From the NCBI GenBank assembly GCA_009909005.1, contig JAAAOG010000191.1, positions 1 to 39,582 of the forward strand: a stretch of 39,582 nt of DNA, given 5' to 3'. Positions 24,283-29,280 of this stretch are shown in pieces (positions within the stretch are counted from its first letter, which is position 1; each line of letters starts with the position of its first letter). Both the position numbers and the translations under genes were made by a program. Source of the stretch: Alphaproteobacteria bacterium (GTDB lineage Bacteria > Pseudomonadota > Alphaproteobacteria > DSM-16000 > Inquilinaceae). Below the pieces are notes generated by a model. It had not been told where the DNA came from, did no database searches, and saw only the letters and a program-made list of their open reading frames with translations.

Positions 24283-24708
24283 TCAGCCCGTGCGGCAGGA
24301 GGTGATCATCACCACCGCGCCGCTTCCCTGAGCCTTGAATCGTGGAATGGCCGCCTTGAGCAACGCGAAGGGATCGATGACCAGCCGTTCCAGCGTCTCG
24401 CGGAACAGCTCTAAAGAGGCATTTTCGCTCGGTCCGTGAACGGCGGGGAAATGGTCGTTGCTGACGATCACGTCGATCGGACCGGCCTCATCCCAACTGC
24501 GGCCGATGAGTTCTGCCGGATCCCTTGCATGAAGCGGTTCGGCATGAGGGTGAGCGGCTTGGAAGGCCGACAGCGTCGCCGCGTCCGAAAAGGTCCGGTC
24601 AGAAGCCAGAACGCGAAAACCGATCTCTCCCAGGGCGTCGACCGCTGGGGGGACCGCGAAATCGCAGACATTGGTATCGCAGACATTGGTGATGAGAGCG
24701 ACCGGCAT
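24283..24708 (-). pseudogene. Truncated SDR / halohydrin-dehalogenase-like gene
   Basis: 141 aa. It begins MPVALITNV and follows a short-chain dehydrogenase fold: a strand, GEIGFRVLASDRTF, then IDVIVSNDHFPAVHG and a helix up to [12 protein letters not shown]. In SDR proteins of about 250 residues this ITS marks the catalytic Ser, and Tyr-x3-Lys/Arg should follow, but a stop comes immediately at 24283. Neither alternate frame before dapE resumes the fold. The lack of a Gly-rich cofactor loop and the SNDHFPA segment recall halohydrin dehalogenases. Catalysis is not possible as encoded. A perfect 15-bp tandem duplication near the start adds five residues. Confidence 0.6.
24661..24690. repeat. 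Perfect 15-bp tandem duplication in the SDR fragment
   Basis: ATCGCAGACATTGGT occurs twice in tandem (24661-24675 and 24676-24690), duplicating the residues T-N-V-C-D near the N-terminus of the truncated SDR. In-frame slippage is the simple explanation. Confidence 0.85.
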
Positions 24709-25514: not shown

Positions 25515-27176
25515 CTAAAAATCATCGGACAGGGCCGCGGCGTCGTAAACTAGCCGGACTTTCTGTTTTTCGCTTTTTCCGCGTACCGTGATGGTCTCGG
25601 TCGGGTAATCGCGGAGGTCGATCAGGGCCTCGCGGGCGAGCGCCTCCGACACCACCAATTGGACCCCGAATTCCTTGGTCAGGCCCTCCAACCGGCTGGC
25701 GGTATTCACCGTATCGCCGATCGCGGTCAGGCTCTTGACCGCGCCATAGCCCATCTCGCCGACGATGGCGGGCCCGAGATGGATGCCGATTCCCATCCGC
25801 AGCGGCGCCGGCAGGTCGGCGGCCAGCCCGTCATTCAACTGCTTCAGGGCCCGGGCCATCCGTCGGGCCGCTCGCAGGGACGCCTGTCCGGCCTCTTGCG
25901 GGCTCCGGCCCAGACCGAAAAGAGCCATGATGCCGTCGCCGACGAACTTGTCGACGCGGCCCCCTGCGGCCTCGATCTCCCGGCCCATGGCCTCGAAATA
26001 GCGATTGAGCAGAAAGACCGTGTCATAGGGCAGCTTGGCCTCCGACAGCCGGGTGAAGCCGCGCAGGTCGGCGAACAGCACGGCGATCTCCATCTCTTTT
26101 CCTTGCGACTGGGCAAGGCGCCCGGGGAAGCCGTCGCGCGGGCTGGCATCCGGCGGGAGCAGGGGCGTCACGTCGAGATCGGCGGTGGGCCTTATCTGGC
26201 AGGCCAGCCGCACGCCCGGACCGGCGCCGATTCGCGCCAGGACCCGGCTCTCGCCGGCATCCGGCGGCGGCAGCGCCTCGGCCCCGCTTCCGACCCGGAC
26301 CCGGCAGGTTGAGCAGCGGCCGCGGCCGCCGCAAACCGAGGCGTGGGGAATACCGGCAGCGCGGCTGGTTTCGAGCACCGTGCTGCCGGGGACGACCTCC
26401 ACCCGCCGCCCGTCGGGATAGCAGAGCCGCGGCAGCCGGGTGCGCCTTTGCCAGGCGTGCCGCGCGATGCGGGCGGCAAAGGGCAGAGCAATCAACCCCA
26501 GCAGGGCGAAGCGGCTCGTCTCGGTCGCCGCGCCGATGAAGGTGGCGGCCTCGACCGTGATCCGCGCGTCGTCGACCATGCGGTTCACCCAGGATGGGTC
26601 TTGCGCCAGGGCTCGGACGTTCATGCCGCCCGCAATATAGCCGGCCAGCGACAAAGCCGGCACCAGCGTTGCAATCGAGAGCAATATCGGCGCCAGGGCC
26701 AAATAGTTTCGTTTTGTGCGCAGCCAATAATGAAGGCCGAGACAGCCATGCACCCAGGCCACCAGCAGCAGCAGGGCCTGGAGCGCGCCTTTCACCGGCG
26801 AATCGACCCAATAGACGAACATGACCAGCCGGTAGTCCGGATCGGTGCCGAAGGCCGTCGTGGCACCGCGCGTTGCCAGGACATGCTCGGCAAGCAGCAG
26901 CGGGATGGCGAGACCGAGCCCCAGCTGGGCCCATTCCCACGGCTGCAGGCGGAGGCTGTGGCGACGCCAGACCGACCAAAGCGCGATCCCGAAATGCACG
27001 GCCAGCGCAGCATAAAGCGCAATCAGGACAGGAACATTCGACCAGACTGCCTGGAAGATGGGGAGCCCGGCGTCCATTGCCTCAAGCGAGACGACGCCGA
27101 GCGCATGATTGGCAAAATGGCTGAGGACATAGGCGAAGAGGACGAGGCCGCTGGTCAGGCGCAGGCGGTTCAGCAT
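25515..27176 (-). CDS. Membrane adenylate cyclase with diheme-type anchor and [2Fe-2S] domain
   Basis: 553 aa from the ATG at 27176 (GGAGA upstream). About six membrane helices (8-27, 48-70, 84-104, 131-152, 158-183, 222-240). The first four each carry a histidine (His20 or 24, His61, His98, His143 or 149), like the diheme-B anchors of succinate:quinone oxidoreductases and of S. meliloti CyaC. Residues 255-335 are a plant-type ferredoxin domain with Cys282, Cys288, Cys291 and Cys326. The class III cyclase domain (about 361-545) has metal ligands Asp370 and Asp414, Lys409 and Asp488 for ATP, and Asn491 and Arg495. It probably makes cAMP in response to quinone or redox state. ZIP transporter gene immediately upstream. 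Confidence 0.9.
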   Translation of the reverse strand: MLNRLRLTSGLVLFAYVLSHFANHALGVVSLEAMDAGLPIFQAVWSNVPVLIALYAALAVHFGIALWSVWRRHSLRLQPWEWAQLGLGLAIPLLLAEHVLATRGATTAFGTDPDYRLVMFVYWVDSPVKGALQALLLLVAWVHGCLGLHYWLRTKRNYLALAPILLSIATLVPALSLAGYIAGGMNVRALAQDPSWVNRMVDDARITVEAATFIGAATETSRFALLGLIALPFAARIARHAWQRRTRLPRLCYPDGRRVEVVPGSTVLETSRAAGIPHASVCGGRGRCSTCRVRVGSGAEALPPPDAGESRVLARIGAGPGVRLACQIRPTADLDVTPLLPPDASPRDGFPGRLAQSQGKEMEIAVLFADLRGFTRLSEAKLPYDTVFLLNRYFEAMGREIEAAGGRVDKFVGDGIMALFGLGRSPQEAGQASLRAARRMARALKQLNDGLAADLPAPLRMGIGIHLGPAIVGEMGYGAVKSLTAIGDTVNTASRLEGLTKEFGVQLVVSEALAREALIDLRDYPTETITVRGKSEKQKVRLVYDAAALSDDF

Positions 27177-27196
27177 TTTTGGGCATCTCCTGCCCC

Positions 27197-27925
27197 TCAG
27201 TTGCCGATGACGGCATGGCAGAGGATGCCGGCTCCGAAACCGCCGACCGCGGCCAGCGGTGGTGCCCAGGCCTGGGCCAGCGGGGTTTGCGGGGCGATGT
27301 CCTGGAAGGTCAGATACAGGATGCCGCCGGCACCGAAGAGCATGAAGGCGCCCAGCCATGGCGGATGGTCGGCAAAGACGAAATAGCCGGTTAATCCCGC
27401 GATCGGGCCGAGTGGCACCAGCGCGACGAGAAGCAACATGGTGGCCGACGCGGCCAGCCCGTTCTGGGTCACCTCGCGATAGGCGTTGAAGCCCTCAGGC
27501 AGATTCTGCAGAGCGATCAAGAGAGCCAGAACCAGCCCCAGCCCTGGCTCGGCGGTCAGAGTTGCGCCGAGCGCCACGGCCTCGGGCAGGAAATCCGCCA
27601 GCATCGCCATCAGCTGGCCGCCGGAACCCCTGACCCTGGCGATCAAAATATCGAGGCCCATGAATGCCGCGCCGCCGGCCAGCAGGGCGGCGATTGCCGG
27701 CGCGGTTGACAGGCGGGCCTGGCCTTCCGGTACGAGCACCAGGGCCACGGCCGCGAGCAGCACGCCACCCCCGAAGGCGATCACCGAGTGCCGGAACTCG
27801 CTCTCCAGCCAGTCCGGGCGGATCTTCTCGAAGCGTGCCAACAGGCCGCCCAGCGGAATCGCCACGCCGGCCAAGGCGCCATAGGCGATGATGGTCGGGA
27901 CGGGTCCCCAGTCGAGCATCGGCAT
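27197..27925 (-). CDS. ZIP-family divalent metal transporter
   Basis: 242 aa polytopic membrane protein with about seven helices. The family metal-site motifs are present as FLPEAVALGATL and IALQNLPEGFNAYREV, though the usual His-Asn-x-Pro-Glu-Gly reads Gln-Asn-Leu-Pro-Glu-Gly here and the first site has Phe-Leu-Pro-Glu rather than His. No His-rich loop. Likely moves Zn, Fe or another divalent metal, direction unknown. The cyclase starts 20 nt after its stop, so the two form an operon, linking metal transport to redox or cAMP signalling by context only. Confidence 0.82.
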   Translation of the reverse strand: MPMLDWGPVPTIIAYGALAGVAIPLGGLLARFEKIRPDWLESEFRHSVIAFGGGVLLAAVALVLVPEGQARLSTAPAIAALLAGGAAFMGLDILIARVRGSGGQLMAMLADFLPEAVALGATLTAEPGLGLVLALLIALQNLPEGFNAYREVTQNGLAASATMLLLVALVPLGPIAGLTGYFVFADHPPWLGAFMLFGAGGILYLTFQDIAPQTPLAQAWAPPLAAVGGFGAGILCHAVIGN

Positions 27926-28036: not shown

Positions 28037-29092
28037 TCACTGTTTGAAAACGGATTCTATGGTTTCGGCATCGATGGCCCGATCAGTCCAGTGATCGAGG
28101 GTGTCGAGATCGGCCACAACGACACGGTCCTTGAGTTCCTCCGATACAGGGCCAAAGCGCCGCTCCAGCAGCCGAAGCACGAAGCCGACCCGCTCCTCAC
28201 GGCGCGCCTCTTCCCGGCCTTCTTCCCGGCCTTCTTCCCGGCCTTCTTCCCGGCCTTCTTTCCGGCCTTCTTCCAGGCCTAGACGCAGGCCTTCAGCCCG
28301 TCCTTCCTTAAGGCCTTCAGCCTTCCATTGCTCCTTCCAATACTCCCCCAACGTCGCCAGCATGGTTCTCATCTCCGTCAAATCGGCAGGTATAACCTTC
28401 TGGATCCCGACACCCTTGATGGCCTGCTCGACCAGGGCCGTAAACAGGCGTCTCAGGTCGGCGTAATCCGGATGCCGACGAAACCAGCGGATCACCTCGT
28501 CGACAAGCGGCGCAAGCTTTGCCGGCTCCTGACGCCGTTCCAGGCGGACCAGCAGTGCCGTCAGGCTTTCAAGCCGTTCCAGTTCACCGGAGGAAAACCC
28601 ACCCATGTCAATGAGATGGTATTGGGCGCGCGGCTGCCAATCCCAAAGCGGAGACCCCGGGGGAAGGGCGATCAGGCCGGCCAGATCGGTTGGCGCCGTC
28701 CAACGCGATCCGCCATTGTACAAGACGATAAGGATCACCGGTGGCAGCTTGTCTCCGGCCTTCAGCGATTGTTCGGATATGATCTGCTGCCACAACAGGC
28801 CCTGATAGACCTGGGTCCGCAGGGGCATCCACCAGTCGCTCTGCGACTGAAACTCGATCAGCAGATAGAGGTAGACGTCACTGCCATAAGTCGTCGGCAG
28901 ACGCCAGATAACATCGCCTTCGCGCCGTTCGCCAAGCGGGCCATGGAATTTTGCCGAGACCTTTTCCATCGCCGCGAAGTCGAGGCCGGCAGCCATGGCA
29001 TCAGGCACGAATTCGCGCACCAGCCCCTCCACCATCACCGGGTGGGAAAAAAGACGATGATAAAGAGAATCGGCATTCATCGCGCGGCTCAT
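28037..29092 (-). CDS. Rpn-family PD-(D/E)XK nuclease / putative transposase
   Basis: 351 aa from an ATG at 29092 (29080 is an alternative; neither has a strong ribosome site). It starts like Rpn/YhgA proteins (SLYHRLFSHPVMVEGLVREFVP). The nuclease core has Asp60 (REGDVIWRL) and the Glu80-x-Gln82 motif (LLIEFQSQ), as in the family formerly called transposase_31. Rpn enzymes promote RecA-independent recombination and some act in phage defence. The C-terminal region has EG-rich repeats made by a 12-bp tandem array, then a helical end. It lies between truA and the ZIP-cyclase pair in an apparent insertion. Confidence 0.85.
   Translation of the reverse strand: MSRAMNADSLYHRLFSHPVMVEGLVREFVPDAMAAGLDFAAMEKVSAKFHGPLGERREGDVIWRLPTTYGSDVYLYLLIEFQSQSDWWMPLRTQVYQGLLWQQIISEQSLKAGDKLPPVILIVLYNGGSRWTAPTDLAGLIALPPGSPLWDWQPRAQYHLIDMGGFSSGELERLESLTALLVRLERRQEPAKLAPLVDEVIRWFRRHPDYADLRRLFTALVEQAIKGVGIQKVIPADLTEMRTMLATLGEYWKEQWKAEGLKEGRAEGLRLGLEEGRKEGREEGREEGREEGREEARREERVGFVLRLLERRFGPVSEELKDRVVVADLDTLDHWTDRAIDAETIESVFKQ
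28210..28281. repeat. Six-unit 12-bp tandem repeat inside the Rpn gene
   Basis: The unit CTTCCCGGCCTT occurs four times exactly and then twice with one or two changes (28258-28269 and 28270-28281). On the coding strand it adds in-frame four-residue units of Glu, Gly and Arg, so copy number can change the linker length without breaking the frame. Confidence 0.9.
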
Positions 29093-29162
29093 ATGGCTTT
29101 GGCCGCCGGCAATCAAGCGAATTTCTGACGAAAACGGTTTCGGGGCTATGCACCGGACGGTT

Positions 29163-29192
29163 TGCTGCATTGCACTATGCTGCACTGCACTC
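29163..29192. repeat. Imperfect 15-bp direct repeat between divergent genes
   Basis: TGCTGCATTGCACTA (29163-29177) and TGCTGCACTGCACTC (29178-29192) match at 13 of 15 positions. They lie in the 188-bp gap between the Rpn gene and the small orphan gene, so a regulator site is possible; no known motif is recognised. Confidence 0.5.
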
Positions 29193-29280
29193 AACATTTC
29201 GGCAAGGTTTCGTCCTGTATTCTCCAAGCAATGACGGCGCGCGGTCCTGTCCAGGGTCGCCGGAGACAGGAGATGATGAC

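Follow-up and report, generated by a model that had tools for sequence, protein, structure and literature searches.

A CyaC-type adenylate cyclase with a predicted diheme-B anchor and a [2Fe-2S] domain, and its divergent ZIP-like neighbour, in an alphaproteobacterium

Background

The closest described system is the adenylate cyclase CyaC of S. meliloti (SMc01818). According to PMC10463352, which draws on Wissig 2019 (Mol Microbiol), it combines a six-helix anchor that binds two hemes B with a [2Fe-2S] cluster and a class III cyclase domain, and its activity is quinone-responsive, activation following oxidation. The gene context given there includes a TetR-type regulator, CycR. In 2016 a survey grouped 30 class IIIb cyclases in one cluster, the members of which carry a ferredoxin domain after a FrdC/SdhC-like anchor with four histidines and before the catalytic domain; two hemes were predicted for them (PMC4821796).

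The cyclase described here is encoded in a window of 39,582 nucleotides, the whole stretch of DNA that was analysed. It shares the parts described for S. meliloti CyaC but is preceded by a ZIP-like gene instead of standing in the CycR context. CyaC of S. meliloti was compared by description, and named rhizobial homologues were used for alignment instead. The preliminary description of the locus had cited S. meliloti CyaC for its histidines only; PMC10463352 gives it a [2Fe-2S] cluster as well. The same anchor, ferredoxin and cyclase parts are found in the cluster (1) class IIIb cyclases of PMC4821796, for example R. palustris Q132R4. No feature difference from this group was found, and the protein appears to be one more member of it. 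The combination of diheme anchor, [2Fe-2S] domain and cyclase is not new, as S. meliloti CyaC and the PMC4821796 group have already been described.

Gene and domain organization

The cyclase gene occupies positions 25515-27176 of the minus strand and encodes 553 amino acids, an assignment based on the open reading frame, its translation and 63 full-length homologues. An AGGAG motif precedes the ATG. The AF2 model of the protein has a mean pLDDT of 91.6. Six predicted membrane helices (residues 2-28, 48-71, 79-109, 127-152, 158-190 and 208-244) form an anchor of residues 1-245 (26442-27176, minus strand). The anchor is followed by a plant-type [2Fe-2S] ferredoxin domain with Cys282, Cys288, Cys291 and Cys326 (residues 255-331; 26184-26414, minus strand), which sits between it and a class III cyclase domain (residues 362-535; 25572-26093, minus strand). 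Both soluble domains exceed the Pfam cut-offs, with E-values of 1.4e-10 for Fer2 and 1.3e-16 for Guanylate_cyc. The class III positions for metal (D370 and D414), adenine (K410 and T484) and catalysis (N491 and R495) are all present in the cyclase domain, the roles being those established for class III cyclases. The Pfam match and conservation agree that the catalytic residues are intact. No Rfam or tRNA features were found within the window.

Conservation among relatives

The alignment contained 64 sequences, the query and 63 full-length homologues; the sources of the homologues were named genome contigs and whole alphaproteobacterial genomes. Each of the four histidines of the anchor (H20, H61, H98 and H143) and each of the four cysteines (C282, C288, C291 and C326) is invariant (64/64), which far exceeds chance. 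The homologous anchors share just 28-48% identity with the query anchor, yet keep the four histidines. All eight residues are kept in the named relatives from Rhizobium etli, Phyllobacterium, a Sinorhizobium and Azospirillum. One of the Rhizobium etli relatives carries the annotation cyaCa. In the Azospirillum copy, Ala and Gln occupy the two adenine positions.

H24 (62 of 64 sequences) and H149 (51 of 64) are not invariant, which leaves H20 and H143 as the likely ligands. The preliminary description had offered His20/24 and His143/149 as alternatives, of which H20 and H143 stand and H24 and H149 drop out; its choice of His61 and His98 agrees with their invariance. Its complete ferredoxin domain and intact cyclase domain are likewise borne out, the former by the Fer2 match and the conserved cysteines, the latter by the Guanylate_cyc match and the key residues present.

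Homologues of the anchor region occur in 106 of the 372 sampled alphaproteobacterial genomes, which illustrates the wide occurrence of the CyaC design. The residues that never vary offer a clear mutational test of how the redox state of quinone reaches the cyclase.

Fold of the anchor and predicted heme ligands

The anchor part of the model has a pLDDT of 96.9. When it was compared with solved structures by VIA-align, the top six matches were b subunits of diheme QFR/SQR, with Z-scores of 11.4-13.8 (13.5-13.8 for W. succinogenes, 12.9 for D. gigas and 11.4 for Chloroflexus), and the next match was cytochrome b561 at Z 6.9; helical bundles can, however, reach Z of about 13 without kinship, and sequence evidence was therefore sought. 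Foldseek returned nothing with an E-value below 0.001 for the anchor and gave W. succinogenes FrdC chains at a probability of 0.98-0.99.

The sequence likeness of the anchor to FrdC/SdhC is weak. In the Pfam search the query anchor itself had no match, and the NCBIfam family sdhC_b558_fam matched 18 of 53 anchors weakly, with a best E-value of 0.00064. A direct search of the anchor profile against PDB sequences found nothing relevant, so that the link to FrdC rests on the fold, on profile alignment by hhalign and on the weak NCBIfam match. Three FrdC-type proteins, fetched through the NCBIfam sdhC_b558 family as hhalign partners, match solved diheme FrdC chains with E-values of 4e-60 to 4e-51. 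The anchor profile aligned to such diheme FrdC-type proteins with an E-value of 0.00016, at an HHsuite probability of only 50%. This alignment pairs H20, H61, H98 and H143 with H46, H97, H147 and H185 of the FrdC-type proteins, which phmmer in turn matches to H44, H93, H143 and H182 of W. succinogenes FrdC.

In W. succinogenes FrdC, H44 and H143 are the ligands of the distal heme, and H93 and H182 those of the proximal heme. From this correspondence the ligand pairs of the anchor are predicted to be H20 with H98 and H61 with H143. The members of each pair also match in depth. A count along the predicted helices puts H20 and H98 at a distance of about 27-28 Å from their cytoplasmic ends, against about 14-15 Å for H61 and H143. 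The likeness to W. succinogenes FrdC thus consists of the QFR-like fold (Z 13.8) and four histidines at corresponding places. The query anchor differs in being fused to ferredoxin and cyclase domains and shares only about 15% identity; FrdC is part of a respiratory enzyme, whereas the query protein is a putative sensor. The preliminary picture of a diheme-type anchor followed by ferredoxin and cyclase is backed by the conservation, the profile alignment to diheme FrdC and the fold match.

Proposed mechanism and the role of the anchor

The protein is very probably a CyaC-type redox-regulated adenylate cyclase linking quinone, hemes, [2Fe-2S] cluster and cyclase domain, with the ZIP-like gene a lineage-specific neighbour. 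Two hemes B in the anchor would trade electrons with the quinone pool; H20 and H98 are predicted to hold the distal heme, and H61 and H143 the proximal one, which lies nearer to the cytoplasm. Electrons would then move from the hemes to the cytoplasmic [2Fe-2S] cluster, and the redox state may alter the dimerized class III cyclase domain, which oxidation by quinone could activate if the protein behaves as S. meliloti CyaC does. The order of quinone, heme pair, [2Fe-2S] cluster and cyclase is most likely the same as in CyaC. We infer that the cofactors are bound, which way the electrons flow, that oxidation activates the enzyme and that cAMP is its product.

The anchor might instead be a mere membrane tether or a lipid receptor, the [2Fe-2S] domain alone sensing a soluble redox partner. 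Ferredoxin-cyclases without such an anchor do exist. One, from Polyangium (L018, 6025-6933), lacks the diheme anchor and has AAMGGAVDFACR at the place of the motif TAIGDxVNxASR of the alphaproteobacterial group; because of this departure its cyclase activity is uncertain. Another, from a metagenome-assembled genome of Leptospiraceae (L017, 5965-7623), is soluble and joins Fer2 and a class III cyclase domain to a C-terminal NAD_binding_1 reductase domain, a domain composition by which it is possibly wired to NAD(P)H and not to quinol. This single metagenome-derived case points to a ferredoxin-cyclase unit that can be coupled to differing electron sources, and it fits a role of the [2Fe-2S] cluster as the switch. 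The tether reading is nevertheless very unlikely, as the four histidines do not vary across such divergent anchors and align with heme ligands, and as S. meliloti CyaC, a diheme protein, responds to quinone (PMC10463352). The preliminary description had named ferredoxin-cyclases lacking the histidines as evidence against its proposal; these were found only among distant proteins that have no such anchor.

The ZIP-like gene and its relation to the cyclase

The gene upstream of the cyclase (27197-27925, minus strand) encodes a membrane protein of 242 amino acids, P0002, a divergent relative of ZIP transporters with a predicted altered metal site. Its Pfam Zip score of 28.1 bits is under the gathering score of 35.1, and its relative L061 passes at 51.0 bits. 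It matches a BbZIP-type structure over the motifs of helices 4 and 5 (E 0.0019). These motifs are like those of ZIP transporters (PF02535; BbZIP), except that Asp111 aligns with, and replaces, the metal-binding histidine of helix 4. The earlier designation 'ZIP' therefore holds as ZIP-like only, given the score below the cut-off and the absent helix-4 histidine. An Asp stands at this position in all six members of the subfamily. In the subfamily (the window protein, L057 and L061-L064) the conserved Asp forms part of a motif D[FY][LIV]PE, and QN[LM]PEG occurs in helix 5. The organism carries three further Zip-domain matches above the Pfam cut-off.

According to the preliminary description the ZIP gene lies 20 nt upstream of the cyclase and suggests coupling to iron or zinc supply. 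The spacing is exact. Both genes are on the minus strand and no terminator-like site was seen between them, so that, with the short gap and a likely ribosome-binding site, co-transcription is plausible from the arrangement of the sequence. The adjacency is not conserved, an outcome that the preliminary description had itself named as counting against its proposal. Among the 63 homologous cyclase loci, some with flanks of 1.5 kb or less, no convincing ZIP-like match was found, the short ones having E-values of at least 0.75, and Pfam Zip matches in relatives lie away from the cyclase. Relatives of the ZIP-like protein are themselves rare (6 of 385 genomes of the class), and full-length matches among 61 related genomes were confined to the organism's own genome and one other, G037. 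None of the five other carriers has the two genes adjacent; only G037 also encodes a CyaC-type cyclase, on the same contig at a distance of about 230 kb from the ZIP-like gene. Nearly all cyclase-bearing genomes lack the ZIP-like gene. A conserved ZIP-cyclase pair was accordingly rejected on the neighbour and whole-genome searches.

The idea that some other gene is the conserved partner upstream was also rejected, the upstream families being diverse. In a survey that took two open reading frames per locus for most loci, the commonest family, ABC_tran, accounted for 8 of 112 candidates, and the neighbours of CyaC relatives, besides ABC transporters, included PfkB kinases, MobA-like proteins and TetR; no single neighbour is general among CyaC-type loci. 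DUF1289 genes lie upstream at the Kiloniella-type loci L002, L003, L005, L007, L011 and L015.

The two gene products could still form a functional pair in this lineage, metal supply and quinone redox state being read jointly through cAMP. The arrangement of the two genes speaks for this, as do the Fur-family genes (L027, L029 and L033) or NifU_N-like genes (L001, L012 and L100) found upstream of some CyaC-type genes. Set against these are the rarity of the ZIP-like relatives compared with the cyclase anchor, the distance in the only other genome that carries both, the cyclase loci lacking a ZIP-like match and the variety of the other neighbours, which make such a pair very improbable. A metal-sensing partnership of the ZIP-like protein and the cyclase is not supported. 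A related possibility, that within this lineage a divergent ZIP-like transporter with an altered metal site shares a transcript with the diheme/[2Fe-2S] cyclase and ties the uptake of metal to cAMP signalling by quinone redox state, is, if anything, less probable still. A literature search for a link between bacterial cyclases and ZIP proteins found nothing, and such a metal link, if true, would be new. The ZIP-like gene is taken here as a lineage-specific neighbour, perhaps co-transcribed with the CyaC-type cyclase.

Other features of the window

Downstream of the cyclase gene, a short open reading frame of 141 amino acids (24286-24708, minus strand) resembles short-chain dehydrogenases, under the Pfam cut-off, and is possibly a remnant or a truncated gene. 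On the other side of the ZIP-like gene, positions 28037-29227 (minus strand) encode a YhgA-like/Rpn-type protein (PF04754, DUF4351) that contains a tandem REEG-rich stretch, and fall in a local G+C dip of about 60%.
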